Below, piece by piece: positions 6,060 to 53,764 of a DNA stretch of 64,000 bases (the stretch's first letter is position 1; every line of letters starts with the position of its first letter). This DNA is from Lachnospiraceae bacterium (GTDB lineage: Bacteria > Bacillota > Clostridia > Lachnospirales > Lachnospiraceae), in assembly GCA_021770785.1 (NCBI GenBank), contig JAETQH010000017.1, positions 1 through 64,000 of the forward strand, given 5' to 3'. Made by a program: the position numbers and the translations under genes. The notes under the pieces were generated by a model. That model had not been told where the DNA came from. It searched no databases and saw only the letters and a list, made by a program, of their open reading frames with translations.

Positions 6060-6150
6060 ATCGAGTAGGGAAGAATTTTCCCCTACTCGCTGCGCGCCCC
6101 ATGCGCCGCTTCAGCGGCATACTTCCTCTGCATGGGGCTGTGCATAAAAA
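6060..6150 (-). repeat. Terminator-adjacent structured repeat, copy A
   Basis: Minus-strand order is: U-tract of the preceding terminator, TGCAC, main stem arm GCCCCATGC, purine strand AGAGGAAGTAT, inner hairpin GCCGC/GCGGC, closing arm GCATGGGGC, the joint GCGCAGC, and a second hairpin with arms GAGTAGGGGAA and TTCCCTACTC. Copies B (9566), C (44569) and D (53685) have the same architecture. Copies A and D share the same main-stem sequence, while B and C carry different, still complementary stems. Here the element separates the histidine-kinase remnant from dnaE. I do not recognise it as a known RNA family. Confidence 0.8.
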
Positions 6151-6186
6151 GAATCTGACAGGCAAAACCGCCTGCCGGATTCCTTT
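6151..6186 (-). terminator. Intrinsic terminator after the histidine-kinase remnant
   Basis: On the minus strand AATCCGGCAGGC pairs with GCCTGTCAGATT across a short loop, followed by CTTTTT. The U-tract runs directly into structured repeat copy A. Confidence 0.8.
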
Positions 6187-6188
6187 TT

Positions 6189-6821
6189 CTAAATGCTTAA
6201 AATAACCCGGAACACTCCCTCCTTAATCTCCGCTTCTAACTCCCCCTGCATTTCCTCCGTCAGCTTTCTGGCAATAGAAAGCTGACGGAGGAATTTTCCG
6301 CAGAAGCCACCGTAAAATAGCGGTCAAACAAATGCCCGGTTCAAAGACACCGGTTCTTTTACGCCATACTCTTCTTTGGAAAGCACGATAGAATAGCGGA
6401 ACAGCTCCTCTGTCAGCTCCCGCATTGCCGCCACCCGGTTTTCCATAACAGAAAGATATTCCTTTGCCTTCTCTGTCAGTTCCTCCTGCTTTAGCAATTC
6501 CATATAACCGCAGACGGCAGTCAGCGGGGTCCGCAAATCATGGGAAATCCCGGTAACCGCCTGCTTTAATTCCATATCGCCTCTAGTGTAGCGCAGCTGC
6601 TCTTTCCGCAGGAGCTTTAAGCTGCTGTCTAACTCCGCCGCTAACTGCCGCATGGTTTTATCCCCGGTGGATACGGAGATACCCACGTTCGTCTCTTCTT
6701 TTATTTTTTCCTGGTACAAAGCCGAAATTTCCCTCGCCGCCCGATGCACGGACATGAGTTTTCCGGCTAAAACCAAAACCAGCGCCGACAGCAGAATGCA
6801 GCAACAGACCAGCAGAGCCAT
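6189..6821 (-). pseudogene. Decayed sensor histidine kinase
   Basis: The intact reading frame (6324-6821) gives an N-terminal membrane helix, a HAMP-like linker and the dimerisation/phosphoacceptor box GISHDLRTPLTAVCGYMELL, then stops after SLNRAFV. Downstream sequence still encodes kinase fragments in shifted frames: FDRYFTVASAENS, then LSIARKLTEEMQGELE and VFRVILSI with a natural stop at 6189-6191. The region between SLNRA and FDRYF, which should hold the ATP-binding N box, is missing. The glycine-rich G2 segment before LSIARK is replaced by a 4-nt shorter sequence forming a perfect palindrome (6252-6293). It follows the permease gene by 12 nt, the usual place for the cognate kinase of this RR-ABC cassette. 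It cannot bind ATP normally. Confidence 0.88.
6252..6293. repeat. Perfect 18-bp inverted repeat inside the kinase remnant
   Basis: The arms at 6252-6269 and 6276-6293 are perfectly complementary over 18 bp with a 6-nt loop. One arm encodes the conserved RKLTEE stretch of the kinase; the other occupies the place where the G2 box codons should be. This is what a template-switch (quasipalindrome correction) mutation leaves behind. Confidence 0.85.
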
Positions 6822-6833
6822 TTTCCCCTCCTG

Positions 6834-7658
6834 TTATTTAATATCTTTTTTCTGAAAAAAGTACAATCCAATTCCATTAAAAATCATAATATCGCAGACG
6901 GCGCAGACAATCAACCGTACCGGATGGGTGATTGTCCCTGTCATCATCTGCATTGCCATGCCGCTGGGCAGTACATCCAGCAAAAATCGGAAAACCGTAC
7001 GGCGCATACCGGTGACATAATAAGGATTTTTCTCCGTTACCATCTTTGCCTGCCCGTCTACAATATCTGCATATTCAAAAAACTGCGGTGAATCCATGGT
7101 CTGATAAAGATAGGAGCCTGCCAGCAAAAGCAGAAAACCTACTATCAGGCAGATAATCGCCGTGTATGCCTTATTTTGATTCAGCATGGCAACCATCTGA
7201 TAAAGGGACGCATATACAAGAAACACCAAAAACATCAGCAGATATTCATACCCGATTTTCCCGAGGGACTCTTTGAAAAATCCAAACAGTGGAATCCCCA
7301 CCGTCAACTGCAAAAACGCAGGTATCAGATAAGTAAGCAGCGCTTCTGTACCGCATAAAACCGAAGTTGATAAATAGATATGGCTTCTCTTTTTTCCCGT
7401 GGCGATTTTATTGCGTATCGTTCCGTCACTGTATTCCGTTCCCACCAATACACTAAGCGATGCCGCCAGCGTAATCGCCGGAAACAGGATATGCAAAAAT
7501 GCCACACTCTCTAACGTTCTCTCCCTTTGATATTGCACCATATCATGGTACTGCGAAATACAGCCCCAGATACCACTAACAAGAATAATGAAAATTCCTG
7601 TCCACAGCCATTTATCTTTTTTTACCCGCCAGAATCCGGCGCGAAGCAAATTACCCAT
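6834..7658 (-). CDS. ABC transporter permease (ABC-2 type)
   Basis: This 274-residue integral membrane protein has about six hydrophobic segments. The first is WLWTGIFIILVSGIWGC, followed by LHILFPAITLAASLSVLVG and a C-terminal LIVCAVCDIMIFNGIGLYF. The motif TEYSDGTIRNKIATGKKR after the second segment is typical of ABC-2 permeases for lipids, antibiotics or bacteriocins. I prefer the ATG at 7658 because GGGAGG lies 5 nt upstream; an in-frame ATG at 7682 lacks this. It pairs with the ATPase at 7733-8665 and was once followed by a histidine kinase. Such response regulator-ABC-kinase cassettes often handle antimicrobial peptides, but the substrate here is unknown. Confidence 0.85.
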   Translation of the reverse strand: MGNLLRAGFWRVKKDKWLWTGIFIILVSGIWGCISQYHDMVQYQRERTLESVAFLHILFPAITLAASLSVLVGTEYSDGTIRNKIATGKKRSHIYLSTSVLCGTEALLTYLIPAFLQLTVGIPLFGFFKESLGKIGYEYLLMFLVFLVYASLYQMVAMLNQNKAYTAIICLIVGFLLLLAGSYLYQTMDSPQFFEYADIVDGQAKMVTEKNPYYVTGMRRTVFRFLLDVLPSGMAMQMMTGTITHPVRLIVCAVCDIMIFNGIGLYFFQKKDIK

Positions 7659-7732
7659 TTTTTCCTCCCATTCCGCCGCCAAAGCGGCTTAAAATTAATA
7701 TGTGGAACTAAAACTTCTTCGGAACCCCACCA

Positions 7733-8665
7733 TCAGTGCAGTTTCGATTTAAAAGCTCTCTCCTCATTGCCTACCAGACGAATATAATAGCTCTCAAGGC
7801 TCTCATCCTGCTGCTGCATAGATATCACCTGACACCCTTCCTCCGCCAGCCACAGAATAAATTCCGTCACATGGATTTTCCCGAAAACATCAATCTGTGT
7901 CCCTGAGAGAATTGAGTACGAGAAATTCCTCTTGTCAAGAACTGTTGCAAACTTCTTCGTATTCTCCACTTCCATACGGGTACAGCTCCGGCACTGAAGT
8001 TCCAGGGCTTCGGCGCTGATTTCTTTTACTATATGTCCGTTGTCAATAAATCCATAATGGGTTGCCAGCCGTGCCAATTCGTCTAAAATATGGCTGGAAA
8101 TCAAAAATGTAATTTGTTTCTCCCTGTTCAGTTTTAAAATCAATTCCCGCATTTCGATGATTCCCTGCGGGTCTAAACCATTTACCGGCTCGTCTAAAAT
8201 CAGCATATCCGGGCTGCCCGCCAAAGCCACCGCAATGCCAAGGCGCTGCCGCATTCCAAAGGAAAAATGCTTTGCCTTCTTTTTCCCGGTATCTGCCAAT
8301 CCCACCAGTTCTAACAATTCCTGTATGCCTTCAAAGGAGGGCAGACCCAAAATCATGTACTGCTGCCTTACATTTTCCTCCGCCGTCATATCCAGATAAA
8401 TGGATGGTGTTTCCACCACGGCTCCAATTCTTCTGCGGGCTTCGTTTATCCCTTTGTCCCCGCTCTTTTTTCCATAAAGGGTAAATTCACCCCCGGTGGG
8501 TTTCTGCAAGCCGCAGAGCAGGCGGATTAACGTGGTTTTCCCTGCACCGTTTTTTCCCACAAAACCGTAAATGCTTCCCTTCGGCACGTGCATGGTCACT
8601 CCGTCTAGCGCCCGAAAGCCGCCATACTGTTTCGAAAGCGCATTTGTTTCTAACACATATTCCAT
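7733..8665 (-). CDS. ABC transporter ATP-binding protein
   Basis: This 310-residue ATPase would power export through the permease encoded next. Walker A is GKNGAGKTT near residue 38, the ABC signature is FSFGMRQRLGIA, and Walker B is DMLILDEPVNGLDPQG, followed by the switch histidine in LISSHIL. The C-terminal 80 residues are an accessory domain of the kind found in BcrA-like and lantibiotic-immunity ATPases. Its gene is preceded by an array of TTTAC-type direct repeats (8726-8844), the expected binding place for the regulator encoded upstream at 8856-9521. The partner kinase is a pseudogene, so normal induction is probably lost. Confidence 0.92.
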   Translation of the reverse strand: MEYVLETNALSKQYGGFRALDGVTMHVPKGSIYGFVGKNGAGKTTLIRLLCGLQKPTGGEFTLYGKKSGDKGINEARRRIGAVVETPSIYLDMTAEENVRQQYMILGLPSFEGIQELLELVGLADTGKKKAKHFSFGMRQRLGIAVALAGSPDMLILDEPVNGLDPQGIIEMRELILKLNREKQITFLISSHILDELARLATHYGFIDNGHIVKEISAEALELQCRSCTRMEVENTKKFATVLDKRNFSYSILSGTQIDVFGKIHVTEFILWLAEEGCQVISMQQQDESLESYYIRLVGNEERAFKSKLH

Positions 8666-8725
8666 ATCATGTCCTCTCTTTCCTGTAAACTTTGTCCGGA
8701 CAGCTTTTTTGTTCCGTTTTTCTAC

Positions 8726-8844
8726 CGTTTCCTATCTTATACTGCAAGGGTTAAGAAAACGATAAAGAATATGGTAAAGAAACAGTAAAGATTGTTTCTC
8801 GAAACAGTAAAGATTGTTTCTCGAAACAGTAAAGATTATTTCTT
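8726..8844 (-). promoter_or_regulatory. Tandem TTTAC repeats, probable response-regulator operator array
   Basis: On the minus strand the sequence contains CTTTACTGTTT, CTTTACCATAT, TCTTTATCGTT and TTCTTAACCCT in 11-bp register. OmpR/PhoB-family regulators often bind such direct repeats. Immediately upstream, a 22-bp unit is repeated three times in tandem (8779-8800, 8801-8822, 8823-8844; the third copy has two changes), which multiplies the CTTTACTGTTTC box. The array lies between the response regulator gene and the ABC operon. Confidence 0.65.
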
Positions 8845-8855
8845 AAAAGTAAATG

Positions 8856-9521
8856 CTATTCCTCCCGCATTTTAAAGCCAATGCCCCAGACTGCCTCTAT
8901 GTAATCTTTGCCACCTGCCTCCCGCAGTTTTTTCCGCAGGTTGCTGACATGGACTTTTAGGGAGCTTTCCATGCAGTCCGGGGTGTCTTCGCTGATACGG
9001 TTCAATATCACGGATTTTGGCACTACCTGTCTGCTGTTTTGCATGAGCAGCTTTAAAATGGCATATTCCGTTTTCGTCAGCTTCACCGCCGTTTCCCCGA
9101 TATGCGCTTCATGGCACAGCAGGTCTAAATGCAGTTCCCCGAAAATAAGTTCCCTGCTGTCCTTTTTATTTTCCTGTTTTCGCAGTTGCACCGTGATTCT
9201 TGCTAACAGTTCTTTTGTGTCAAAGGGCTTTGTCAGGTAGTCCGCTGCACCGTCTAAGAGAACCTTTACCTTGTCCTCCACATCTATTTTGGCACTAATC
9301 ACAATGACGGGTGTCTCTTTTAATTTGGGCAGAATTTCCTCGCCGGAAAGTCCCGGCAGCATTAAGTCAAGGAGTATTACGTCTGCTTTTGTCTGCTCTA
9401 ACAGCAGCAGCGCTTCTGTGCCGGAATAGGCACGCAATACCTGATAGCCCTCCCTTGTCAGTACCTCTTCTAGCATGTTTCCGATATAAACATCGTCATC
9501 AATGACTGCGATTGTGTACAT
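8856..9521 (-). CDS. OmpR/PhoB-family response regulator
   Basis: This 221-residue two-component regulator has an N-terminal receiver domain (TIAVIDDDVYIGNMLEEVL). The phosphoacceptor Asp is in ADVILLDLMLPGLSGEE near residue 53, and the conserved Thr/Ser and Lys are in PVIVISAK and YLTKPF. The C-terminal winged helix ends in VHVSNLRKKLREAGG and VWGIGFKM, as in OmpR/VanR. It probably controls the adjacent ABC operon through the direct repeats at 8726-8844 and may autoregulate. Since the neighbouring kinase is broken, it is either orphaned, phosphorylated by another kinase or acetyl phosphate, or inactive. The start at 9521 has a GGGAGG site. Confidence 0.94.
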   Translation of the reverse strand: MYTIAVIDDDVYIGNMLEEVLTREGYQVLRAYSGTEALLLLEQTKADVILLDLMLPGLSGEEILPKLKETPVIVISAKIDVEDKVKVLLDGAADYLTKPFDTKELLARITVQLRKQENKKDSRELIFGELHLDLLCHEAHIGETAVKLTKTEYAILKLLMQNSRQVVPKSVILNRISEDTPDCMESSLKVHVSNLRKKLREAGGKDYIEAVWGIGFKMREE

Positions 9522-9565
9522 AGCTGCCTCCCTCTTAAATTCTGTTTTTCCCCTTTCGGGCTACA

Positions 9566-9660
9566 ATCGAGTAGGGAAGATTTCTTCCACTGCTCGTGCG
9601 CCAGGCGTCCGTCAGCTTCTGCTGACTTTCTTCCTTTGGACACCCGTGTGCATTTAAAAG
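9566..9660 (-). repeat. Terminator-adjacent structured repeat, copy B
   Basis: This has the same architecture as copy A. On the minus strand TGCACA is followed by stem arm CGGGTGTCC, AAAGGAAGAAA, inner hairpin GTCAGC/GCTGAC, and closing arm GGACGCCTG, then GCGCACGAG and the second hairpin ending CCCTACTCGATTGTA. The main stem differs from A and C in sequence but still pairs, with G-U pairs allowed. It lies between the terminator of the DUF4065 remnant and the response regulator gene, whose start is 45 nt further on. Confidence 0.78.
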
Positions 9661-9690
9661 AGACAGACACAAACTGCCTGTCTCTTTCCG
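9661..9690 (-). terminator. Intrinsic terminator after the DUF4065 remnant
   Basis: On the minus strand AAAGAGACAG pairs with CTGTCTCTTT across a short loop and is followed by TT; the U-tract joins structured repeat copy B. Confidence 0.75.
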
Positions 9691-9694
9691 GTCA

Positions 9695-10180
9695 TTATAA
9701 TGCGCTATTCAATGTATTACTGTTAAATTCTTCGAGTTTTTCCAACACCGTTAAATATAAATCTTCATAATCATCTTTCATGTTCCATGTAAGTACCTCC
9801 GCATCTTCAAACTCATCAAAATACATATCCCACACATGGTCATAGGGACGTACCTTCTTAGAATCTTCCCGAATATCCTCTAACTTTAATTTCTTACTGC
9901 CATTTTCACCATCTGCTAAACCTATTCTTGCATTTTTCCATGATTTTTCTTTATGTGACAGTTCACTTAACTTCCATGACGCTAAGGAACCATATTCCAG
10001 AATAATATTATTAATAATGTACTTACACTCGTCTGAAATATCGCTGTCATAATCTATTATTCCATCTCGGGTAATTGAATTGCGTATTTCCTTACATACC
10101 GGACCATACTTCCATCCCTCGAATTCACCTTCAAATAAAGGTTCATTTCCATTCAGCCACTTCCTTTCCTTTATTTTCAT
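9695..10180 (-). pseudogene. N-terminally truncated DUF4065 / SocA-like (Panacea) protein
   Basis: The readable protein (161 residues from the ATG at 10180) begins in the middle of the family's first conserved block: NGNEPLFEGEFEGWKYGPV corresponds to the usual LF-x-E-x-EAW-x-YGPV region of DUF4065/SocA-like antitoxin domains. The helices that normally precede it are absent. The upstream frame continues to 10267, but through sequence made of promoter-like repeats, not homologous protein. The ATG at 10180 sits right after a possible -10 (TGATATACT) with no ribosome binding site. I therefore call it a probable truncated gene. No toxin partner is adjacent. A functional short protein cannot be excluded. 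Confidence 0.6.
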
Positions 10181-10294
10181 ATACAGTATATCATGTGCAA
10201 AAACGGCACATGATTGACATTCGCCGTTCGCCGAACAAGCAAGCATGTTCTTCTCTCTTGCGCTCATTATATCCTAATTACTGCGCACGCTTTT

Positions 10295-10357
10295 TGCGCA
10301 TCTCAAATTTCACAGAAACTTGCATAGGAACGCTGGTTTTGCGTTCATTATATCATA
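10295..10357 (-). repeat. Promoter-bearing repeat F, copy 1
   Basis: This 63-bp unit is identical to 25703-25765 at 60 of 63 positions. On the minus strand it starts with TGATATAAT, an extended -10 promoter motif, then a hairpin GAACGC/GCGTTC and a second one AGTTTC/GAAATT. A partial third copy of the beginning (ATATAATGAGCGC) lies at 10261-10275. The unit reads toward the DUF4065 remnant. It looks like a mobile or duplicated promoter-plus-leader module. Confidence 0.75.
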
Positions 10358-10500
10358 AAATGTAAACTTATGGGATAAAATTTTACCATAGAAACACAAG
10401 CAACTCCATCACTTTTTAATCTTTTTAGAAAAATCACTTATGGACATCTTATAGGCAGCTGCTTCATAAGGACGCAGATAAACTGTAATCAAAAATCTAT
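10358..10500. other. Intergenic stretch between repeat F and the clpB terminator
   Basis: This AT-rich sequence has no plausible gene on either strand. It contains no recognisable operator; the only notable neighbours are repeat F on one side and the clpB terminator on the other. Confidence 0.5.
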
Positions 10501-10545
10501 AAAAAGGACATTTATTGTACATTACGCACAACAAATATCCTTTTT
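10501..10545 (-). terminator. Intrinsic terminator of clpB
   Basis: AAAAAGGA with TATTTGTTG on one side pairs with the complementary sequence ending TCCTTTTT, in a long A/T-flanked stem-loop starting 28 nt after the clpB stop codon. Confidence 0.8.
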
Positions 10546-10572
10546 GTTATTTTCAACTTCCTTCACTCTTTT

Positions 10573-13155
10573 TTATTTTACTCTGGCAGTAAGTGTATCA
10601 TTTTCCACATCAATCAGAATGGTATCTCCCTCCCGCACCTTATCCGCAAGAATCAATTTCGCAGACAGGGTTTCCACATGTTTCTGTAGGAAACGCTTTA
10701 GAGGTCTTGCACCGTAAACCGGGTCGTAGCCGTGTTCCACAATAAAATCCTTTGCCGCATCAGAAAGCTCCACCGTAATCTCCCGGTCAGAAAGCCTTCC
10801 ATTCAACTCTGCCATCAGCAGCGTAATAATATTTCCGATATTACCCTTCGTCAGCGGCTTAAACATAATAATCTCATCGAGACGGTTTAAAAACTCCGGA
10901 CGGAAATGTCCCCGCAGCTCACTCATCACCGCTTCCTCACAGGCGGGATTGATATCCCCGTTCTCGTCAATCCCTTCCAACAGATGAGCGGAACCTAAGT
11001 TTGACGTCATGATGATAATGGTATTTTTAAAGTCCACGGTACGCCCCTGGGAGTCCGTGATACGTCCGTCATCCAATACCTGCAGCAATACGTTAAATAC
11101 GTCCGGATGTGCCTTTTCCACCTCATCAAACAACACCACGGAATACGGTTTCCTGCGGACTGCCTCCGTCAGCTGGCCGCCCTCGTCGTAACCCACATAT
11201 CCCGGAGGCGCTCCGATTAAACGGGACACGGAATATTTTTCCATGTACTCACTCATATCAAGACGCACCATATTCGTCTCGTCATCGAAAAGGCTTGCCG
11301 CCAACGCCTTTGCCAGCTCGGTCTTACCAACTCCGGTAGGCCCTAAAAACAGGAAGGAACCGATGGGCTTGCTCGGGTCTTTAATGCCCGCTTTGGAACG
11401 GATAATCGCTTCCGTCACCTTGGTGACGCCCTCGTCCTGTCCCACCACCCGTCTGTGGAGTTCCTCGTCTAAATGCAGGGTTTTATTCCGCTCGCTCTCC
11501 GTCAGCTTCGCCACCGGGATTCCCGTCCAGCGGGAAATAATACGGGCAATTTCCTCTTCACTGACATTCTCATGGACCAGGGAGAGGTCACGGTTTTTCA
11601 CTTCCTCTTCCTCAATCTCCAACTGCTTCTCTAACTGGGGCAGTTTGCCATACTGCAATTCTGCCGCTTTCTCTAAATCGTAATTCTGCTGGGCAGCCGT
11701 TATCTCGTTTCTGGTGGTTTCTAATTCTTCTCTCAGCTTTTGCACCCGCTCTACGGATTTCTTTTCATTTTCCCATTTTGCCTTTTTATTGCTGAACTCA
11801 TCACGAAGCTCTGCCAGCTCTTTCTGTAAATTGGCAAGACGTTCCTGGCTCAAACGGTCCGTCTCTTTTTTCAGCGCAGTCTCTTCAATCTCCATCTGCA
11901 TGATACGGCGGTTCTCCTCGTCCAACTCCGTGGGCATGGAGTCTAGCTCCGTCTTAATCAGGGCGCAGGCTTCGTCCACTAAATCGATTGCCTTATCCGG
12001 CAGGAAACGGTCGGAAATATAGCGGTTAGAAAGTACTGCCGCGGAAACTAACGCTCCGTCCGTAATCTTAACGCCGTGGAATACCTCATAGCGCTCCTTT
12101 AATCCACGGAGAATAGAAATGGTATCCTCCACCGTGGGCTCATCTACGGTCACAGGCTGGAAACGGCGCTCCAATGCCGCATCCTTTTCAATGTACTCCC
12201 GGTACTCGTCTAAGGTGGTGGCACCGATACAATGCAGCTCGCCCCGTGCCAGCATTGGTTTCAACAACTGTCCTGCGTCCATGGCGCCGTCGGTTTTTCC
12301 GGCTCCCACAATGGTGTGCAGCTCGTCAATAAACAGAATAATCTGTCCGTCAGAATTTTTGATATCGTCAAGCACTGCTTTCAGACGTTCCTCAAATTCG
12401 CCCCGGTATTTTGCTCCGGCAACCAATGCGCCCATATCAAGGGCAAATAATTTTTTATCCTTCAGCCCCTCCGGCACATCTCCTCTGACAATTCTCTGGG
12501 CCAGCCCTTCCACAACAGCGGTTTTCCCGACGCCGGGCTCGCCGATTAACACCGGATTATTTTTAGTTTTCCGGGATAAGATACGGACTACATTTCTGAT
12601 TTCCGCGTCACGCCCGATGACCGGGTCTAACTTCTGGTTTTTCGCCCGCTCTACCATGTCGTAGCCGTATTTTTCCAATGTGTCGTAGGTTGCCTCCGGG
12701 TTATCGGAGGTCACCCGCTGGTTGCCCCTTACAGTGGACAATGCCTGTAAGAACCGCTCTCTGGTGATACCGTATTCTTTGAAGATTTCTTTTAATGCCT
12801 TGTTGGGGTATTTTAACAGACAGAGGAACAAATGCTCCACGGAAACGTATTCGTCCCCCATCTGCTTTGCCTCGTCCTCTGCGTGAATCAATACCTTATT
12901 CAAATCCTGTCCCACGAACACCTGACCGCCGGACACCTTAACTCTGGCTGCTAAATGGCGTTTGGCGTTGTCAATAAAATGCTCCTTCTGGATTTCCATT
13001 TTTTCAATCAGTTTTAAAATCAGCCCGTCCTCCTGCTGCAGCAAAGCTACCAGCAGATGCTCCTGCTCGATTTCCTGATTGCCGTATTCGTAGGCAAGCT
13101 TTTCACAGTCATTGATGGCTTCTACGGATTTCTGGGTAAATTTCTGAATGTTCAT
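10573..13155 (-). CDS. clpB: ATP-dependent disaggregase ClpB
   Basis: This 860-residue Hsp100 chaperone works with DnaK to rescue aggregated proteins after heat stress. Two Clp-N repeats (residues 1-145) precede the first AAA+ domain, with Walker A GEPGVGKT near residue 208. A long coiled-coil middle domain (about 410-525, rich in E/K/R/L) marks ClpB rather than ClpA/C. The second AAA+ domain has Walker A GPTGVGKT near residue 605 and [22 protein letters not shown]. There is no C-terminal ClpP-binding loop typical of ClpX/A that I can see. A CIRCE operator overlapping a strong promoter lies upstream, so HrcA should repress it. Confidence 0.97.
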
Positions 13156-13184
13156 AAGCGTACCTCCCTCTTGCTCTATCGGTG

Positions 13185-13258
13185 GGTTTCAAAGCTGCAC
13201 CGCATGAATGTAAGATATGCAGTTTTGCAGAAATTCATGTGGTGAGTGGTTTGAAACC
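13185..13258 (-). promoter_or_regulatory. Large hairpin in the clpB 5' leader
   Basis: In the roughly 120-nt leader between the promoter and the clpB start, GGTTTCAAA (13250-13258, minus strand) can pair with TTTGAAACC (13185-13193). ACCACATGAAT (13233-13243) can pair with ATTCATGCGGT (13199-13209), and an internal GCAAAACTGC loop lies between. The ribosome binding site lies outside the stem. It could stabilise the mRNA or respond to temperature, but no such role is shown by the sequence. Confidence 0.6.
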
Positions 13259-13280
13259 GGTTGTTTTTCTGTTTAACTGA

Positions 13281-13309
13281 GTTATAGCACGGTTTGTTAG
13301 CACTGTCAA
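13281..13309 (-). promoter_or_regulatory. Sigma-A promoter of clpB
   Basis: On the minus strand TTGACA (13304-13309) and TATAAC (13281-13286) are separated by exactly 17 nt. The -35 box falls inside the CIRCE element, so bound HrcA would block RNA polymerase. Confidence 0.85.
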
Positions 13310-13323
13310 GAGGTGAGTGCTAA
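13297..13323 (-). promoter_or_regulatory. CIRCE operator (HrcA binding site)
   Basis: TTAGCACTC, a 9-nt spacer and CAGTGCTAA on the minus strand match the CIRCE consensus with one mismatch in the second arm. CIRCE is the binding site of the heat-shock repressor HrcA. In many Firmicutes clpB is under CtsR or both; no clear CtsR heptad repeat is visible here. Confidence 0.9.
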
Positions 13324-13330
13324 AATTTTC

Positions 13331-13567
13331 AGATTATTTTTGTATACCCTGTATTCAGACTGTTTATAAAACGTCGGCACTTAGGCACCGTATTTTGGTG
13401 TCTTATGTACCGCTATGTTTTATACCAAGCAAGAGCGTGTCCGAATAGGAAGAACCGCTATCCACCCCTAAGGCGCAGGGAAGGCTGAACTGTTACCGGG
13501 TAGCAGCAGTCAGCAGCAAATGAATTGCCAGCCGTTCAAGGTCTGTCTTGCGGACAGTTACATACCT
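13331..13567. other. Intergenic region between clpB promoter and vanW-like gene
   Basis: No gene is visible on either strand. Small hairpins are present, for example GGCACC/GGTGTC at 13384-13402 and CTGTC/GACAG near 13541-13555 (minus strand), the latter just after the VanW stop. None has the U-tract of a classical terminator. Origin and role are unknown. Confidence 0.4.
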
Positions 13568-14437
13568 CTACTGCAATATCAGCGTTACCGTTACTACGCC
13601 ATTTGCTGCAGATGCCTGAATCAATAGTGGCTGTGAAAATGTATTGGTAAACTTAAGGTCTTTGCTTGTTCCTACAATCGTTGCGTCATAGCCTTCCGGA
13701 AGATATGGAACCGGCAGGGAATGCGGATAACGCTCTGTTGCCGGAAGCCCCGCATGCAGCATTGCAGCGTAAAGTGTCGATGATACCTGACATACACCTC
13801 CACCAATTCCGGTACCAACCGTTCCACTGATATAGATTGGTGCTACGACATATCCGTTTGCCGCAGTGCGCGGTAAAATCGTGGAACTAAAAGAAAATGA
13901 TTGTCCCGGCTGTACCACAACGCCATTGATGCGGGCTGCTGCCAGTTCTACATTGACAGCTCTCGGAATCGTTGCGTCATATTCCGTCGTACATGTACCG
14001 ATCACATTTTCCTGTGTTACGGTCGTATCCGCTGCAACTGTACCGGCAGGCACACTTCCTGTTCCGCCTCCGTCTCTTCCCTCTGCTTTACCATAAGACA
14101 CATAATGACGGCAATATGCTGCCATGTCATCGCCAAACGCCTGCTGCAGATCTGCGTAGTTTGCCCGGTATGCCTGCGGATTAAAATCCGCGGAGCAGCT
14201 TCTTCCTTCCTTTAATCCATAATTTACAAAATGATTAAAAAGCGCTGCCTGATTATTGCCAAATGCAGCAGCCACATCCGGATATGCACTGTAGTAATAA
14301 CCTGCATCAAAAACTGCCTGATACGCACTACGTTCTGCCGCCGTTACTGCACCTGCCGTCATCGGAGCCGTCATAAGAACTCCCGCGCATGCCACAACCG
14401 CCAACATCCTTTTCGTCCAATATTTTCTTCTTCTCAT
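13568..14437 (-). CDS. Secreted VanW-family protein
   Basis: This 289-residue protein has a signal peptide (RKYWTKRMLAVVACAGVLMT). Two tandem short repeats follow, of the type AYQAVFDAGYYYSAYPDVAAAFG and FNPQAYRANYADLQQAFG, each ending in a HFVNYGLKEGR or HYVSYGKAEGR motif. These repeats recur in secreted clostridial proteins. After a Gly/Thr linker comes a VanW domain with RINGVVVQPGQSFSFSSTI and the signature GIGGGVCQVSSTLYAA near residue 215. VanW-like (YoaR-type) domains occur next to peptidoglycan-related domains; their biochemical role is not settled. The start at 14437 is preceded by GGGAGG. It stands alone between the clpB region and the cellulose operon terminator. Confidence 0.88.
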   Translation of the reverse strand: MRRRKYWTKRMLAVVACAGVLMTAPMTAGAVTAAERSAYQAVFDAGYYYSAYPDVAAAFGNNQAALFNHFVNYGLKEGRSCSADFNPQAYRANYADLQQAFGDDMAAYCRHYVSYGKAEGRDGGGTGSVPAGTVAADTTVTQENVIGTCTTEYDATIPRAVNVELAAARINGVVVQPGQSFSFSSTILPRTAANGYVVAPIYISGTVGTGIGGGVCQVSSTLYAAMLHAGLPATERYPHSLPVPYLPEGYDATIVGTSKDLKFTNTFSQPLLIQASAANGVVTVTLILQ

Positions 14438-14568
14438 GGTATCCTCCCTGTGATTTTACTTTATATCTAGTACTTTATATTAGTCCTATTATGCACTAAT
14501 CAGACCATCTATGCAAGGATTTTATGGTATAAATAGCAAATCAGATAACCGTTCAGCCTTCCATTCAC

Positions 14569-14609
14569 AAAAAGTCCCGCAGACCCTGAAAATTCAAGGT
14601 CTGCGAGAC
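14569..14609 (-). terminator. Intrinsic terminator of the cellulose operon
   Basis: On the minus strand GTCTCGCAGACC and GGTCTGCGGGAC form a strong stem with a TTGAATTTTCA top, followed by TTTTTG. It lies 80 nt after the last gene of the operon (stop at 14689). Confidence 0.82.
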
Positions 14610-14688
14610 ATGATATCTCTCACAATTCCAACTTCATACAAACAGACTGTGGATACGATATTTATCACCAACCGATCTTTTTCTTTCC

Positions 14689-25653: not shown

Positions 25654-25702
25654 TTAGAAAGCTCCTTTCATAGGTTTTTATTTTCATTATTATCATAATT
25701 TC

Positions 25703-25765
25703 TGCGCATCTCAAGTTTCGCAGAAACTTGCATAGGAACGCTGTTTTTGCGTTCATTATATCATA
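25703..25765 (-). repeat. Promoter-bearing repeat F, copy 2
   Basis: This 63-bp sequence matches 10295-10357 at 60 positions. On the minus strand TGATATAAT (extended -10) is followed by hairpins GAACGC/GCGTTC and CAAGTTTC/GAAACTTG. The element ends 50 nt before the DUF4474 start codon and points toward it. Two of the three differences from copy 1 fall in the second hairpin, and here that stem is perfectly paired. Confidence 0.78.
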
Positions 25766-27609: not shown

Positions 27610-27641
27610 AATTAGATACCTTCCTTCCTCAATTTATTCAT

Positions 27642-27771
27642 TTTCCTGCCGGGCAGCCTGCATATTCCGCAGCTTTTTCCTGCCGGCAGCCCTCCTATTC
27701 CAATGTCTTTTCCTACCGGGCAGCCTGCATATTCCGCAGCTTTTTTCCCGGCAGCCCTCCTATTCCAATGA
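27642..27771. repeat. Two tandem copies of a 67-bp unit
   Basis: Units at 27642-27708 and 27709-27771 are nearly identical; both contain GGGCAGCCTGCATATTCCGC and GGCAGCCCTCCTATTCCAAT. Each unit carries an imperfect GCCGGGCAGC/GGCAGCC pairing. The duplication fills the spacer between the two GH43 genes and the minus-strand open frame through it has no ribosome binding site, so I read it as non-coding. Confidence 0.75.
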
Positions 27772-27774
27772 TTT

Positions 27775-29379
27775 TCATACTTCGTATTCCACATATTCCA
27801 CTGCAAGCCTTCCACCCGCACCCCGGGCTTTCCGCATACAGAACACACCGTTTTTCACGCCAACCCAGCGCCCTGGCACGGAAATCATGTTTCCCGCCTC
27901 TTTGTAGTTCTCTCCGTCTAAGCTGTAGGAAATCGTCACCGTCTCCTCCGGGAAACTTTTTTCCGTCTCGCTTAAATCACGGATGCCCGTTCTCTTCACC
28001 TCATATTTCACATAGAGAACACTCTGGCTGGCGGCATCTAACGTATCAACTGCCGTACTGCTTTCCTCCGTGGCTTCCTCTAAAATCTTGCCAAACTTCT
28101 GCACACCTTTTACAAAATTTAATTCCAATACACTGCCGATGCGTTTTATCTCCAACAGACCGTATCTCATTCCCATGGAAATCACTCCGGCACAGTCCCC
28201 CTCCTTCATTTCCCCGCAATCCAGCTTGGTTACACAGGTAAACTCCGGTGCCGGCCATTTCTGTAACAAAAGATTAGGCTGATTTCCATAAGGAGTATCC
28301 ACATCGGCAGCTGCCGCATTCAAGAACAGCTTTCCGCCCTTTAACTCATACCAGCCCTCCTTCGGATTGGCATTCCACTGCCACTGAAGTCCCAGGCTGC
28401 TGCCGGAAAAATCATCCGAAGCCTCCGGCTCAAAAATGCTGCTTTCCGCAGCTCCCACATCAGGCTTGCGGTACTCCGTCACAGGCTCCCCATAATCCTT
28501 TCCCTCCTTGGCAACGCCAATAATAGGCCAATCCTCTTTCCAGCTCATGGGCTGCAAATGCACAATCCTTCCCGCTGCATACACATCCTGAAAATGAAGA
28601 AACCAGTCCTCCCCCGTCACCGTATCAATCCATGCCCCCTGGTGAGGTCCGTTCACCGGGCTGTCCCCCTGGCGCATTACAACCTTACACTCATAGGGAC
28701 CAAACACATTCTTAGACCGCAGCACCGTCTGCCACCCGATTTTCACCCCGCCCGCCGGAGCAAAAATATAGTACCAGCCGTTTCTCTTATACATTTTCGG
28801 CCCCTCAATGGTCACCTGGTCATTCTCGTTTCCGTCAAAAGTCTTCACTTCCCCGCCGATTAACCCCATACCGTCCGGCTGCATTTCCACCATATGAAGC
28901 ACGCTCTTATAGCCAATCCGGCTCTTCGCCACCCCCGCCACAAGATAAGCTCTTCCGTCCTCGTCCCAGAACGGACAGGGATCAATCCACCCCGCCCCCG
29001 GACGGATATTCACAGGCCGGGACCACTCCCCAAAAGGATCCTTCGTCGTACACATATAAATCCCCTCATCCGGCATCGGAAAGCAGGCATAAAAAATCCC
29101 CTCATGATATCTCAAAGACGGTGCCCAGACCCCGCATCCGTGTACCGGCTTGTCATAACGCTCTCCCGGCACCTCAGGCAAAATATAATTTACCACCTTC
29201 CAGTTCACCAAATCCCTAGAATGCAGCAACGGCAGCCCCGGCGCATTACAAAAGCTCGACGCCGTCATAAAATAATCCTCCCCCACCCGAATCGCATCCG
29301 GGTCAGAGTAATCCGCATACAAAACAGGATTTCGAAACGTCCCGTCTCCCTTATCCGCAATCCAAATCTGTTTCCCCAT
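27775..29379 (-). CDS. Glycoside hydrolase family 43 protein
   Basis: This 534-residue, cytoplasmic, second GH43 enzyme is only moderately similar to its neighbour. The propeller begins GTFRNPVLYADYSDPDAIRVGEDYFMTASS, with the general base Asp in YSDPDA. GCGVWAPSLRYHEGIFYAC lies near residue 78, PGAGWIDPCPFWDEDGRAYLV near 130 and NDQVTIEGPKMYKRNGWYY near 190; the last likely holds the catalytic acid Glu. A C-terminal beta-sandwich follows (from about 325). Substrate is likely xylan- or arabinan-derived oligosaccharide; the two paralogues may act on different linkages. As first gene of the pair it faces the AraC regulator gene across a 337-nt intergenic region. Confidence 0.88.
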   Translation of the reverse strand: MGKQIWIADKGDGTFRNPVLYADYSDPDAIRVGEDYFMTASSFCNAPGLPLLHSRDLVNWKVVNYILPEVPGERYDKPVHGCGVWAPSLRYHEGIFYACFPMPDEGIYMCTTKDPFGEWSRPVNIRPGAGWIDPCPFWDEDGRAYLVAGVAKSRIGYKSVLHMVEMQPDGMGLIGGEVKTFDGNENDQVTIEGPKMYKRNGWYYIFAPAGGVKIGWQTVLRSKNVFGPYECKVVMRQGDSPVNGPHQGAWIDTVTGEDWFLHFQDVYAAGRIVHLQPMSWKEDWPIIGVAKEGKDYGEPVTEYRKPDVGAAESSIFEPEASDDFSGSSLGLQWQWNANPKEGWYELKGGKLFLNAAAADVDTPYGNQPNLLLQKWPAPEFTCVTKLDCGEMKEGDCAGVISMGMRYGLLEIKRIGSVLELNFVKGVQKFGKILEEATEESSTAVDTLDAASQSVLYVKYEVKRTGIRDLSETEKSFPEETVTISYSLDGENYKEAGNMISVPGRWVGVKNGVFCMRKARGAGGRLAVEYVEYEV

Positions 29380-42776: not shown

Positions 42777-42790
42777 ATTTCTTATAAGGT

Positions 42791-44308: not shown

Positions 44309-44332
44309 GTTTTCCCTCTTCTTCTATTCCTA

Positions 44333-44568: not shown

Positions 44569-44660
44569 AATCGAGTAGGGGAGATTTTTCCCCTACTCGC
44601 TGCGCCGGGTGCGGGCAGCTTTTGCTGCCTCTTTCCTCTCCGCACCCGTGTGCATAAAAA
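44569..44660 (-). repeat. Terminator-adjacent structured repeat, copy C
   Basis: Minus strand: TGCACA, stem arm CGGGTGCGG, AGAGGAAAGA, inner hairpin GGCAGC-AAAA-GCTGCC, closing arm CCGCACCCG, GCGCAGC, and second hairpin GAGTAGGGGA/TCCCCTACTC ending in CGATTGTA. The stem arms are perfectly complementary and differ in sequence from copies A and D. It follows the FapA terminator and precedes the 47-residue gene by 93 nt. Confidence 0.8.
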
Positions 44661-44703
44661 CACCACTATATTATTTTCCTTACCCATTATAATATAGTGG
44701 TGC
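44661..44703 (-). terminator. Intrinsic terminator of the FapA gene
   Basis: On the minus strand CACCACTATATTAT and ATAATATAGTGGTG form a strong stem, followed by TTTTT that runs into structured repeat copy C. Confidence 0.82.
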
Positions 44704-46193: not shown

Positions 46194-46267
46194 CGTGCTC
46201 CCTATATCTATTCTACATCAACTATAGTGTACACTTACTCACAACAAAAAATATCTTCCTACATTCT

Positions 46268-46296
46268 ATAATACTAGCAGTCCGCACCTTTTTCAA
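46268..46296 (-). promoter_or_regulatory. Putative sigma-A promoter of the FapA gene
   Basis: On the minus strand TTGAAA (46291-46296) and TATTAT (46268-46273) are spaced by exactly 17 nt, 75 nt upstream of the start codon and directly after valS. Confidence 0.6.
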
Positions 46297-46336
46297 GTGA
46301 AATCTTTGTTCCCACTCAGATTTTGTTAAACTTTCG

Positions 46337-49078: not shown

Positions 49079-49165
49079 AATCGTTTCTCCTTTATCATTT
49101 TTTGTTGCAATTACTTTTTCTGCTGCAGGGTGTACCGGGTATCCACAGATGTTTTTTCGCTTACT

Positions 49166-49466
49166 ATAAAAACGCCCCCTGCATTCTCTGGAGAATGCAA
49201 AGGGCGATATTATCGCGGTACCACCTTTGTTCGTCAGTATAACTAACCTTTGTCCTGCCGGCGCAGCTTAATCCTGTGCTTAGCGGGCGGTTCACTAACG
49301 GGAACCGGGCGGGAATACTTTTGCCGTATCTTCTCCTACGCTTTCTCGGTATTCCGGTTCAAAAGCTACCTTCCACATGCCTTTCTTTGGAAAACCTTTC
49401 AGCCAATGGGATTTCCTCTCTGACAAGAGTGCACGTGTACTCCTCTTTCTCATTACCTTTGATTTC
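49166..49466 (-). promoter_or_regulatory. T-box riboswitch of valS
   Basis: The conserved T-box word GGTGGTACCGCG-like sequence (AAAGGTGGTACCGCG on the minus strand) is at 49214-49228. It is followed by a terminator hairpin, GCCCTTTGCATTC and GAATGCAGGGGGC with TTTTT (49168-49206). The upstream Stem I region contains AGAGAGGAAATCCC and the specifier context GGTAGCTTTTGAACC; the GTA codon at 49367-49369 fits valine. Uncharged tRNA-Val would stabilise the antiterminator and allow valS transcription. Confidence 0.88.
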
Positions 49467-49477
49467 TTATGTTTCTT

Positions 49478-49506
49478 ATCATACGTGGGGATTTTTTATT
49501 TGTCAA
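49478..49506 (-). promoter_or_regulatory. Sigma-A promoter of valS
   Basis: On the minus strand TTGACA (49501-49506), a 17-nt spacer and TATGAT (49478-49483) lie just upstream of the T-box leader. Confidence 0.8.
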
Positions 49507-49541
49507 CTGTTTTTTTCAGGTGCAAGAGTGCGCTAGCATTC

Positions 49542-52500
49542 TTACAATTCCTCTTCCACCATACTCTTATTGCTGGTAAATAGGTCATAAATACACGGTA
49601 CTACAATCAGCGTCAGCAACGTACCGTAAATCAGTCCTCCCTCTGTGACAATCGCCATGGGCTGCATCATTTCTGAGCCGCCCCCAAGCCCTAACGCCAT
49701 GGTGGACATGGAGAGGATGGTGGTAAGCGCCGTCATAAGAATCGGGCGGAGCCTGGTCTTTCCTGCCTCTACAATCGCCTGCCGCTTCTCCATGCCCTCT
49801 CTCCTGAGCTGGTTGATATAATCCACCATAACGATACCGTTATTTACAATAATACCCGCCAACATGACAAATCCGATCATGGCAATGACACTGACCTCTT
49901 TTCCCGTGAAAAACAGGGCAAAGAAGCCTCCGGTAAATGCCAGCGGGATGGTAAACATAATGATAAAGGGGGAAAGGAAGGACTGAAACTGCGCCACCAT
50001 AATCAGGTAAATAAAGATAACCGCCAGCAAAAGCATCAGGTACAGCTGGCTCATCGCCTCATTGATGGTTTCATCCTCTCCGGTCATGGCTACGGAATAA
50101 CCCTCCGGCAGTTCTAATTTCTCTAACTCCTTCTGTATCTCATTACTTACCAGCGTTACGTTGTGCTCCCCGTCAATACCTGCGGAAACGCTGATATAAC
50201 GGTTCTGGGAATCCCTGTAAATGGTATTTAAGGCACTTCCCTCTTCAAAGGCTGCAATCTCCGACAGGGCAACCTCTTTTGACTCTCCCATACGATCCGT
50301 ATAGGTGAAGGTCAGCTTTTTAATGTCCTCTAAGGTGGTGCCGGACTGTTCCTCCGTCTGAATGTAAACCTTATAATCCTTTAAATCCGTGGTAATGGTG
50401 GTAGGTGATGTGTCCGCTGCCATCTTTGCATAAACAAGCTGGAACACCTGTGCTGTGGTCATACCGTATTTTGCCGCTTTCTCCTTATCCACCACAACGG
50501 TAAAGGATGGAGTGGTATCACCGAGACCGTCCTCCACATCCACCGTTCCCTCCGTCTGCTCCACAATCGCCGCCACCTCTGCCGCAAGCTCCTGCAGCCT
50601 ATCTAAGTCTTTCCCGCTGATTTGCACCGAAATGCCGCTGCCAAACATGGCGCTCATGTCAGAGGACGAGGCATCCGCCGACACTTCGCAATCCATATCC
50701 CCGGTTAATGCCGTAATCTGTTCTGCAATCTGGTCTGCGGTCATGTCGGTTTCCCCATCTAAAATCAGGTACATGGTAACGCTGTCATCACCGCCGCCTA
50801 AGGACATCATGCTGCCGCCCCCTGTCATGGCGCCGATGGCCTCAATACCGGAAATACCGGAAATTTTTTCCACAATCTCATCAGACAGCGCCGTCAGTTC
50901 CTCAAAAGTCAGCGTCTGGTCTTCCTTAGCTCCCACCGTCACAGTCATCTGGTTTGACTCCATGCTCATATCCATAAAGGTAAAACCACGGGAAAGGGCT
51001 GACACCATGCTGACTGCCAAAAGAACCACCACGGCAATAAGCACAAGGGGCTTTACATGAAGTGCCATATCCAGCACAAATACATATCCGTCCCTTAATT
51101 TTTCAAAAAATCCCGCCTTGACCTCTTTGGTATTTTTCAAAATTCCCGCCGCCATCATAGGTACAAATGTCAGCGCCACAATCAGGCTGGCGGTCAGGGT
51201 AAAGGCAATCGTCAGCGCAATATCCACAAACAGCTGCCTTGTAATGCCCTCCGTAAAGATAATGGGGGCAAAAACACAAACTGTCGTAAGGGTAGAGGCA
51301 AAAATGGCCCCCGCCACCTGGCTTGCGCCTTCCACCGCCGCTTTACGGATGGAATACCCCTCCTTTTGCAGACGGTAAATGTTTTCAATTACTACAATCG
51401 AGTTATCCACCAGCATACCAATTCCGAGGGCAAGGCCGGACAGCGAAATAATATTTAAGGAAATATCGGAAAAATACATCAGCACAATGGCAAAAATAAC
51501 GCTCAGCGGAATGGAGCAGGCAATCACCATGGTGGGTTTAAAATCCTTCAAAAACAGCGCCAGCACGATAACCGCCAAAAACGCCCCCACAATCATGTTT
51601 TCCAATACGGATTCCACAATCATATCAATATAAACGCCCTGGTTCATCAGAATCGTCATTCTAAGACCGTCTGTTTCCTTTTCTAAGGCTTCAAATTTAT
51701 TTTTTACCCGCTTCGTCACATCTCCGGTGGAATATCCGGTCTGCTTTTCAATGGAAAGCAGAATCGCCGGGTTTCCGTTCAGCTTGGAGTAGGACTCGGA
51801 GGAATTGTCCACCATCTCAATTTCCGCCACATCCGAGAGCCGTATGGGCCCGATTCCCTCCAGCCCTAAATCAATCAGCACCAGATCCGTCAATGCGTCC
51901 GTGGATTCCACCTTATCTCCCACCCGCACCATATAGGAATTGTCTCCCTCCTGCACATAGCCTGCCGGCATGGAGAAATTCTGTGCCACCAGAAGACCGC
52001 TTAAATTTTCCACCGTCAGGACAGCATTTAAGTCCGCTGCTTCCTCCGCACTCTGTTTCGCCTCGTCAAGCTGCGCCTGCCCCAAAGCTAGCTGGTTTTC
52101 CCCGTCTGCTAACTGTGCCGCCGCATCGCTCATCTGAAGCAGGCTGCTGATTTCCGTTTTGTTTAACGTCACATAGGCATCGTCTAACGTGGTTTTTCCC
52201 TCTGCCACCTGATTCTGCGCCGCCTCGATGGCTGCCATGCCGGAATTAATTTCCACCAACTTTGCCGAGAGGGTTGCTATTACCTGGGGAATATCCTCAA
52301 TGGAAGAAAGGCTCACATCGAAAGCCGCTAACTGCTCCGACCACTGCCCGCTTAAAGACGCATTCAGCTCTAAAATCTGGTACTTTAACATGTCTATCTG
52401 GTCACTGTCCATTATATTCTGCCCCATGGCAGCCACAATACTATCCTGTATACTGTCTGCCGCTGTCCCGGTGCTTCCCTCCGCAGTGTCGGTTCCGGTG

Positions 52501-53519
52501 GTAGCTCCGGTTCCTGCCGTATCTCCGGTTCCTGCCGTATCTCCGGTGTTTTCCCCGGTAAATCTGTTTTCCAGATCATCTAACTGCTGTTCCAAAATGG
52601 CAGTACTCTCATCACTGCGAGCCTGGGCCGCTCCTAACTGTTCCTTTAATTCCATTCCCTGTTTATAAATTTCCTGCAATTCCGGCACTGCTTGTTCAAT
52701 CAGGGTTTTCATTGCCCCTAGCATCGTGTAATTCTGGTTCAGGTCAGACTCCGACACAAAGGCCTGAATCTTTCCGTTTGTCATCTCATTCTGCGCCTGT
52801 CCTAACTGGCTGGCAAGCTCTTCTTTCCCGCTGTCTAACTTCTCTTTCCCGTTCCGGATTTCCTCTGCGGCATCGTCTAATTCCTTCTGGGGCTCTTCGA
52901 ATTGTTCCTCGATTTTCTCAAAAATCTTTTCGTTTAACCCGTCAATTTTCTTCTGGTCTAAGGTCACCCGCACCGCTTCCTCTAAGGTTCCCGTGGCGGA
53001 AACAGATGCCACACCGTCCACACTGGTAAGGGCAGGCACTAATTCCTGCTCTACATACTGGGAAATTTCCCCCCGGCTCATGCCCTCAATGTCCGCGGAA
53101 GCCACCATAATAGGCATCATATCCGGGTCAATCTGCATAATCATAGGTGTTCCCACGCTATCCGGGAAACTGCCCTCTAGCTGGTCAAGCTTCTGCTGCA
53201 TTTCGATCAAAACAGAATCCATGTTGGCGCTCTGCTCATACTCCAAAATCACCATGGAATAACTGTCATAGGAGGACGAACTTACGTTTTTGATATTGGA
53301 AGTGGTCGCCATCGCCGACTCAATGGGTGCCGTCACATCACTCTCCACCTCTTCCGGGCTGGCTCCAATATCTGTGGTAACCACCAATGCGTAGGGCAGA
53401 TTCATATCCGGCAGCAAATCCGTAGTCATTCTCGTAAAAGAAACAACTCCTAAAACCACCACCAAAATCACGCCTACAATCACCGTGTATGGCTTTCTCA
53501 CACTAAACTTCGAAATCAC
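49542..53519 (-). CDS. RND-family exporter (AcrB/HAE1-type) with long coiled-coil insert
   Basis: This 1325-residue protein has 12 predicted membrane helices in the RND layout: helix 1 at residues 10-30 (YTVIVGVILVVVLGVVSF), helices 2-7 at about 690-880 and helices 8-12 near the C terminus (AVIFIYLIMVAQFQSF). RND landmarks include ALGIGMLVDNSIVVIENIYR in helix 4 and FTIPLAFTGGFFALFFTGKEVSV. Residues about 180-530 hold an insert with coiled-coil stretches and a low-complexity TAGTG repeat (52480-52560). Gram-positive members export lipids, peptides or drugs; substrate unknown. I chose the GTG at 53519, with AGGAGG 8 nt upstream; the frame extends to 53666 without a ribosome binding site. Confidence 0.85.
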   Translation of the reverse strand: MISKFSVRKPYTVIVGVILVVVLGVVSFTRMTTDLLPDMNLPYALVVTTDIGASPEEVESDVTAPIESAMATTSNIKNVSSSSYDSYSMVILEYEQSANMDSVLIEMQQKLDQLEGSFPDSVGTPMIMQIDPDMMPIMVASADIEGMSRGEISQYVEQELVPALTSVDGVASVSATGTLEEAVRVTLDQKKIDGLNEKIFEKIEEQFEEPQKELDDAAEEIRNGKEKLDSGKEELASQLGQAQNEMTNGKIQAFVSESDLNQNYTMLGAMKTLIEQAVPELQEIYKQGMELKEQLGAAQARSDESTAILEQQLDDLENRFTGENTGDTAGTGDTAGTGATTGTDTAEGSTGTAADSIQDSIVAAMGQNIMDSDQIDMLKYQILELNASLSGQWSEQLAAFDVSLSSIEDIPQVIATLSAKLVEINSGMAAIEAAQNQVAEGKTTLDDAYVTLNKTEISSLLQMSDAAAQLADGENQLALGQAQLDEAKQSAEEAADLNAVLTVENLSGLLVAQNFSMPAGYVQEGDNSYMVRVGDKVESTDALTDLVLIDLGLEGIGPIRLSDVAEIEMVDNSSESYSKLNGNPAILLSIEKQTGYSTGDVTKRVKNKFEALEKETDGLRMTILMNQGVYIDMIVESVLENMIVGAFLAVIVLALFLKDFKPTMVIACSIPLSVIFAIVLMYFSDISLNIISLSGLALGIGMLVDNSIVVIENIYRLQKEGYSIRKAAVEGASQVAGAIFASTLTTVCVFAPIIFTEGITRQLFVDIALTIAFTLTASLIVALTFVPMMAAGILKNTKEVKAGFFEKLRDGYVFVLDMALHVKPLVLIAVVVLLAVSMVSALSRGFTFMDMSMESNQMTVTVGAKEDQTLTFEELTALSDEIVEKISGISGIEAIGAMTGGGSMMSLGGGDDSVTMYLILDGETDMTADQIAEQITALTGDMDCEVSADASSSDMSAMFGSGISVQISGKDLDRLQELAAEVAAIVEQTEGTVDVEDGLGDTTPSFTVVVDKEKAAKYGMTTAQVFQLVYAKMAADTSPTTITTDLKDYKVYIQTEEQSGTTLEDIKKLTFTYTDRMGESKEVALSEIAAFEEGSALNTIYRDSQNRYISVSAGIDGEHNVTLVSNEIQKELEKLELPEGYSVAMTGEDETINEAMSQLYLMLLLAVIFIYLIMVAQFQSFLSPFIIMFTIPLAFTGGFFALFFTGKEVSVIAMIGFVMLAGIIVNNGIVMVDYINQLRREGMEKRQAIVEAGKTRLRPILMTALTTILSMSTMALGLGGGSEMMQPMAIVTEGGLIYGTLLTLIVVPCIYDLFTSNKSMVEEEL

Positions 53520-53684
53520 TTCCACATCCTCCTGACTTTCTTTCCCGGCTTTCCGTTTCTTCAGTAGTTTCAGTTTACGTCTTTTTGTCGAAAAAACAAG
53601 ATTTTTTGCGCAATTTATATTTTTTTTATAAAAGAAAACTACCACTCTGTATTGCCTCCGCCGCACTTCCCCACACCTGATATG

Positions 53685-53764
53685 TTTTCCCTACTCGCCG
53701 CGCGCCCCATGCGCCGCCTCGGCGGCATACTTCCTCTGCATGGGGCTGTGCACAAAAAAGGAGG
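53685..53764 (-). repeat. Terminator-adjacent structured repeat, copy D (truncated)
   Basis: Main-stem and inner-hairpin sequences are the same as copy A (GCCCCATGC ... GCATGGGGC), but the outer half of the second hairpin is missing: only GAGTAGGGAAAA remains and the complementary arm has been lost or replaced. It lies between the terminator of the 43-residue gene and the RND gene. Confidence 0.75.

Follow-up and report, generated by a model that had tools for sequence, protein, structure and literature searches.

A small hairpin element inserted behind terminators in Lachnospiraceae, with a 3′ end resembling that of group IIC introns

Introns of group IIC (bacterial class C) insert directly behind terminators (PMC8919778), and in the solved E. 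rectale IIC complex contacts are made with a DNA stem, a short spacer, the T's of intron-binding site 1 (IBS1) and the dT of IBS3, which lies just downstream of the insertion point (PMC10190682). Integron attC sites serve some IIC introns as targets (PMC4424553). Here we describe an element of about 85 bp which occurs four times in a 64,000-nt stretch of DNA from a Lachnospiraceae bacterium (assembly GCA_021770785.1, contig JAETQH010000017.1, positions 1–64,000; this whole stretch is called the window and its source genome the host). Like the REP/REPIN sequences associated with RAYT proteins, the element is a small intergenic palindromic repeat of lineage-specific sequence and conserved structure; unlike these, it forms direct and not inverted arrays, targets terminators, carries an intron-like tail and has no consistent RAYT. 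It shares with attC sites the folded stem, bulges, variable arms and tandem arrays, whereas no cassette open reading frames (ORFs) were seen in its arrays (no search was made for attC core sites). With group IIC introns it has in common the insertion site, directly 3′ of a terminator-like hairpin with its T-run and in the same orientation, a T past the 3′ junction, the end CCTAC[TC]CGAT, a domain VI-like last hairpin and the absence of target duplication. Because tail, target, orientation and clean joins agree, the element appears to use IIC mobility or to descend from it, and we hold with moderate confidence that it is a small mobile element, non-autonomous and either derived from group IIC introns or living on them as a parasite, without domain V or a protein of its own. 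This likeness goes beyond an earlier note on the window, made from the letters alone, in which the repeat was first recognised.

All four copies lie in one orientation, as the earlier note had claimed, and are read on the minus strand. An unfiltered scan of the window with the model R1 placed them at 44570–44654, 6060–6144, 9566–9652 and 53675–53752 (E-values 3.6e-25 to 2.9e-12), and its ten weaker rows comprised three mirror matches to the hairpins of the copies and seven matches elsewhere at E ≥ 1.1; the scores of copies A, B and C are not independent, because the training set of R1 included them. Copy A (6060–6144, 105.3 bits; stem GCCCCATGC/GCATGGGGC) is complete with an intact second hairpin, and copies B (9566–9652, 72.8 bits; CGGGTGTCC/GGACGCCTG) and C (44570–44654, 106.9 bits; CGGGTGCGG/CCGCACCCG) are also complete, while copy D (53685–53752 within the model match 53675–53752, 56 bits) has a second hairpin without the 3′ arm. 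These stems were quoted correctly, two of the pairs in copy B being wobbles. The joint GCGCAGCGAGTAGGG, said to be conserved, is exact in A and C only; D has GCGCGGCGAGTAGGG and B departs more. Directly upstream of every copy, on the same strand, a terminator hairpin with its T-tract was seen by eye (6145–6189 for A, 9653–9687 for B, 44655–44703 for C and 53753–53790 for D, each counted in the terminator tally below), which confirms the proposed order of terminator, T-tract and element.

The unit consists of TGCACA, a 9-bp stem, a purine bulge, an inner hairpin, a second hairpin and the terminal CCTACTCGAT, and in the window copies the TGCACA start abuts the T-tract of the terminator-like hairpin. 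The first hairpin rests on the foot TGC[AG]C/GCGC[AG], above which come a single bulged A, the 9-bp stem of variable sequence and, in the 5′ strand, a purine-rich bulge of some 11 nt; a 5-bp inner stem and a small loop complete it. The second hairpin, GCGAGTAGGG...CCCTACTCGAT, ends with CTACTCGAT, the part that is gone in copy D, and no T-run of the element's own stands behind it. No gene lies within the element, nor does it have the terminal inverted repeats of a miniature inverted-repeat transposable element, its ends reading TGCACA... and ...CTCGAT. Rfam gave no match at the gathering score in the window, and the ten matches found at E ≤ 5 in five element-bearing loci were all under that score, in agreement with the earlier impression that the repeat belongs to no named family.

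The resemblance to introns concerns both the target and the 3′ end. A host group II intron (Rfam D1D4-3) begins with GTGCG directly after hairpin-TTTTTTAT, and an intron of genome G019 sits behind hairpin-TTTTTAT (start placed by eye); judged by domain V and target, both are probably of the IIC type. All of the 14 distinct intron 3′ ends selected by two domain V patterns read CCTAC[TC]CGA[TC], with T as the next base in 13, whereas other group II introns in these genomes have different ends, for example CTACTCGAC or CTATCGCTAT. Among 127 element copies (131 model matches minus three cut by a stretch end and one mirror match), 81 end in CCT[AG]C[TC]CGAT, 56 of them exactly in CCTACTCGAT. Control strands amounting to 1.0 Mb contained no instance of the intron end pattern, and a similar pattern occurred three times outside element hairpins in the loci from named genomes. 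Domain VI of the introns starts with GTG[AG]GAGG and the second hairpin of the element with GCGAG[TC]AGG. When R2, a model trained on introns only (domain VI), was run over 92 element loci (689 kb), 17 matches were obtained at E ≤ 10 and 15 of these ended exactly at element 3′ ends; the remaining two were an intron-like domain V–VI end abutting an element in locus L228 and one unrelated match.

Several introns were also observed that are short or placed close to elements. The domain V–VI end in L228 occupies positions 1–46, at the very start of that locus, and may represent an intron–element junction. Shortened group II introns measure 514 nt in the host and 692 nt in G056; the former, in L500 (host contig C24), spans GTGCG to CCTACTCGAT directly behind a terminator and is too short for a reverse transcriptase gene. 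In G061 an apparently 5′-truncated intron lies behind a terminator, and in L062 an intron targets the terminal hairpin of a related element.

The association with terminators suggested in the earlier note is strong and oriented. A T-tailed hairpin was found upstream of 48 of the 56 host copies and on the mirrored side of only one, the corresponding counts in the set of named genomes and phages being 94/119 and 9/119. A T-tailed hairpin of −8 kcal/mol or lower lay just upstream of 93 of 110 copies (121 of the 127 had enough upstream DNA, and 11 tandem-looking ones were subtracted); the same was true of 36 of 400 positions chosen at random and of 91 of 400 rich in T. Of the eight exceptions in the host, three are units in tandem, two stand behind partial units, two have weaker hairpins and one is a remnant. 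In 95 single copies starting with TGC[AG]CA, the upstream flank is a T-run followed by A at −1 in 82%, and of 101 copies 92% have T as the base next to the 3′ end. Some targets resemble T-box terminators in leaders, judging by the T-box motif.

A comparison of the ffh–rpsP region showed the insertion itself. The host has CCTTTTTGA before and TAAATAATC behind the element, G018, G025, G002 and G028 have the empty site CCTTTTTGATAAA, and G031 has an element of another subfamily at the same place, behind CCTTTTTAA. The insertion is thus clean, with at most one T shared and no target-site duplication, as read from this one empty site; when 30 loci were read by eye, two of the 29 in which rpsP was found were occupied. 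At ffh–rpsP a small hairpin and five T's form the site, and since they separate genes that are usually cotranscribed, it seems that the hairpin rather than termination is recognised. The dnaE promoter had been placed downstream of copy A, and a promoter-like stretch at its 3′ side is indeed conserved before dnaE in G018, G025, G019 and G034 (by eye), where no element is present; there is no empty site for copy A, because the gene upstream of dnaE varies among relatives.

The host assembly (5.0 Mb) contains at least 55 copies at E ≤ 3.2e-4 with the model A2/R1, built from 20 host copies, a lower bound because only 150 of the 2255 first-look candidates were scored. Matches at E ≤ 0.001 were present in 17 of 60 genomes, the host among them. 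A pattern scan returned at least 108 stretches from named genomes and one from the viral collection, and R1 confirmed 92 of 109 loci among the named-genome matches listed plus the viral one. Record titles are known for 80 of the at least 108 stretches, several loci coming from one assembly. Among these listed matches 66 were confirmed: 41 titled Lachnospiraceae, 13 Hungatella, Eubacterium, Roseburia, Parablautia or Lachnotalea, and 12 with other or vague titles (Clostridia, Clostridiales, uncultured bacterium, Bacillus, Ruminococcus, Clostridium and Muribaculaceae, mostly metagenome-assembled genomes, MAGs); the 14 unconfirmed ones came from other groups, Streptomyces and Pseudoxanthomonas among them. 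Direct arrays are represented by 21 neighbour pairs at most 200 bases apart, 16 of them abutting to the base, and some array neighbours differ in subfamily.

The element has also entered phages. In contig L287, assigned to a phage by eye from its terminase and portal-like genes, it lies between a sigma-like gene and a small terminase gene; four relatives carry it too, and it was absent from the other 41 of 46 loci searched save for one chance-level match. L399 and the other phage carriers have nearly identical flanks, yet in L399 the stem CGCCGATGC replaces GACCCGTGC with full compensation, as expected if another copy took the place of the first one. Together with the empty ffh–rpsP site, this replacement supports the earlier idea of a mobile element aiming at terminators. 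Related phages without the element had diverged too far for locating the join, and a search of phage records gave 26 distant matches, mostly terminase.

The structure was examined at the level of both fold and covariation. Folded as RNA, copies A, B and C beat all 200 shuffles (z = −5.6, −4.7 and −6.8) and copy D was weaker (z = −2.9, one shuffle equalled it); folded as DNA, A, B and C likewise beat all shuffles. The anticipated covariation of the stems was found in the 20 host copies as well as in 115 copies from named genomes. In a structure-free alignment of the former, standard pairs filled 95.6% of the pair cells versus 82.4% after shuffling, and both-sided changes were counted in 71 cells versus 26.6, with 0 of 500 shuffles as high, although two of the five covariation measures were no better than shuffling (69/500 and 217/500). 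In the latter, both-sided changes occurred at 23 of 27 pairs (477 cells versus 140), the alignment being fitted to the model and hence biased towards its pairs. Much of the covariation falls between subfamilies having different stems. Mismatches, the outermost pair excluded, comprised 100 G.T and 100 A.C, as opposed to 18 G.T and one A.C in 19 tRNAs from the fetched DNA (7 of the 26 distinct predicted tRNAs were excluded for poor stems). An RNA acting in place should tolerate G.U far better than A.C, therefore the copies look like decaying DNA without any sign of RNA-level selection, the fold having apparently mattered in the source elements.

The rival explanations differ in how they accommodate these facts. 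A structured RNA or an insulator that serves the host at the ends of genes, blocking read-through or protecting 3′ ends, was one of the meanings offered in the earlier note, and both the covarying structure and the placement behind terminators would suit it. The unbiased mismatches (100:100 versus 18:1 in tRNA) speak against it, as do the position of the element 3′ of the T-tract, the second hairpin lacking its own T-run, and the copies found in phages, behind T-box terminators in leaders and behind the chance hairpin between ffh and rpsP, a site empty in relatives; we regard such a role as highly improbable. Unbiased mismatches are what a single-stranded DNA element would show if it were moved by a Y1 (HUH) transposase, as REP/REPIN are by RAYT and PATEs by IS200/IS605. 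Its hairpins would then be protein binding sites and the T-run a cleavage flank, and the two hairpins, the lack of terminal inverted repeats and of target duplication, the tandem units and the stems that are lineage-specific as in REPs all fit, as do related copies in G030 behind TTTTA or TTTAT, IS200 copies in these bacteria lying behind TTTAA (by eye). However, Y1_Tnp was not found in 5/9 and 4/12 genomes searched, mostly MAGs, the IS200 ends read by eye and non-exhaustively in loci of G000, G034 and G019 are unlike the element ends, the sole RAYT-like gene seen, in G030, adjoins a different palindrome, and the intron-like tail would be left unexplained. The absence of a gene is weak evidence, because MAGs and drafts easily lose repeated mobile genes. 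The REP/RAYT or IS200/IS605 origin considered earlier appears quite unlikely.

Some other hairpin-recognising recombinase might be at work, the IIC-like tail and target being convergent or captured for another use. In line with this, none of the tested gene families occurs throughout the carriers, and domain 1 of the element is common to relatives whose 3′ ends are unrelated. On the other hand, a ten-base tail match combined with the same next T and the same target is improbable by chance, and the ORF families recurring beside copies in the named loci are common genes only; we consider this explanation unlikely. By eye, the recurring neighbours were ABC transporters, MATE, glmM, regulators and, in four loci, one Rpn-like family. 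Rpn nucleases, tried as candidate mobilisers, gave four matches in the host genome, three over the cut-off, and nothing consistent.

Descent from or parasitism on group IIC introns has to be set against a number of observations that do not favour it. The introns are about 1.6–1.9 kb long and the element 85 nt; it lacks domains I–V and an encoded protein, has a bulged hairpin in the place of domain V, and starts with TGC[AG]CA or GC[AG]CA instead of GUGYG. The catalytic domain V (RF00029) had no match in the window, nor at E ≤ 5 in the five element loci. ORF-less or 5′-truncated group II introns are similarly short and dependent on a protein in trans; unlike the element, they keep domain V. In the intron model the A of domain VI stays unpaired, whereas its counterpart in the element (A in 72%, G in 28%) is paired with T or C. 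Elements and introns do not co-occur: RF00029 was detected in 7/17 carriers versus 17/43 non-carriers and in 6/15 named carriers, and RVT_1 was absent from 6/18 carriers, many of the genomes compared being incomplete MAGs. Single E-values of R2 were weak (0.002 to 7), thus its evidence lies in the concentration of the matches; in the window it hit copies A and C weakly (E = 0.76 and 0.85), below a chance match at 0.43, and in 54 control loci it gave two matches, neither on an element, and missed the L315 element. In the reverse test, 8 of the 21 matches of R1 on 12 intron loci overlapped domains V–VI, which make up 1.3% of the bases searched, yet all of these had E ≥ 0.5 and only one matched the 3′ end. 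Finally, the related elements of G030 and G034, which have the first hairpin in common with this one, carry an additional palindrome on the 5′ side and end differently on the 3′ side; perhaps the first hairpin is the older part common to all and the tail a module that can be exchanged. As domain V, GUGYG and co-occurrence are missing, we do not claim that the element belongs to the intron family, and its movement by introns is what we infer.

Under the preferred reading, a non-autonomous element tied to group IIC introns, catalysis would come from elsewhere, because no recognisable domain V, GUGYG start or gene is present. A IIC intron ribonucleoprotein would move the element in trans, its machinery recognising the domain VI-like tail. 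Insertion itself has a fixed orientation and takes place immediately 3′ of a hairpin and T-run, mostly at intrinsic terminators and usually between A and T. The 3′ end of the element RNA would be joined ahead of the T serving as IBS3, and the joined copy would be reverse transcribed; as a suggestion only, the purine bulge ARNGGAAR may pair with the T-run in the manner of exon-binding site 1 (EBS1). Tentatively, the element could even be a bacterial counterpart of short interspersed nuclear elements (SINEs), that is, an 85-nt RNA parasite of IIC introns composed of a domain VI-like tail and a target-reading hairpin, which relies in trans on a ribozyme and a reverse transcriptase that are not its own and has formed lineage-specific subfamilies in Lachnospiraceae and their phages. 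The literature searched, mostly without subscription papers, contained neither a description of this element nor a group II intron satellite lacking domain V. If the preferred reading is right, mobility is possible with a catalytic core provided in trans. This has a bearing on intron fragmentation and on the relation of SINEs to long interspersed nuclear elements (LINEs), and it would account for an intergenic feature that is frequent in common gut bacteria and lacks annotation; the elements would also represent very small substrates for hairpin-targeted insertion.

Further repeats and RNAs were observed in the same material. G030 carries a related multi-hairpin repeat with an extra CCCC-hairpin unit at about 40 or more places (e.g., L165, L170 and L173), and its copies follow TTTTA or TTTAT, often TTTTA without a terminator. 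The RAYT-like gene of this genome (L178, 584–1360) stands beside element remnants and the different palindrome GGGGACGG. A presumed full-length carrier in G030 contig 98 resolved into two separate elements with ordinary genes between them, and in L164 and L165, where two elements lie close together, the intervening genes were also ordinary-looking. Near host reverse transcriptase genes, Rfam identified RT-4 and RT-14 RNAs (L450, 999–1118, and L448, 2633–2785, respectively). The window itself contains a 67-nt repeat at 10291–10357 and 25699–25765 (94% identity, 15 kb apart), an intergenic array of related units TTTTCCTGCCGGGCAGCC... at 27641–27775, and three tandem copies of the 22-nt repeat GAAACAGTAAAGATTGTTTCTC at 8779–8848.

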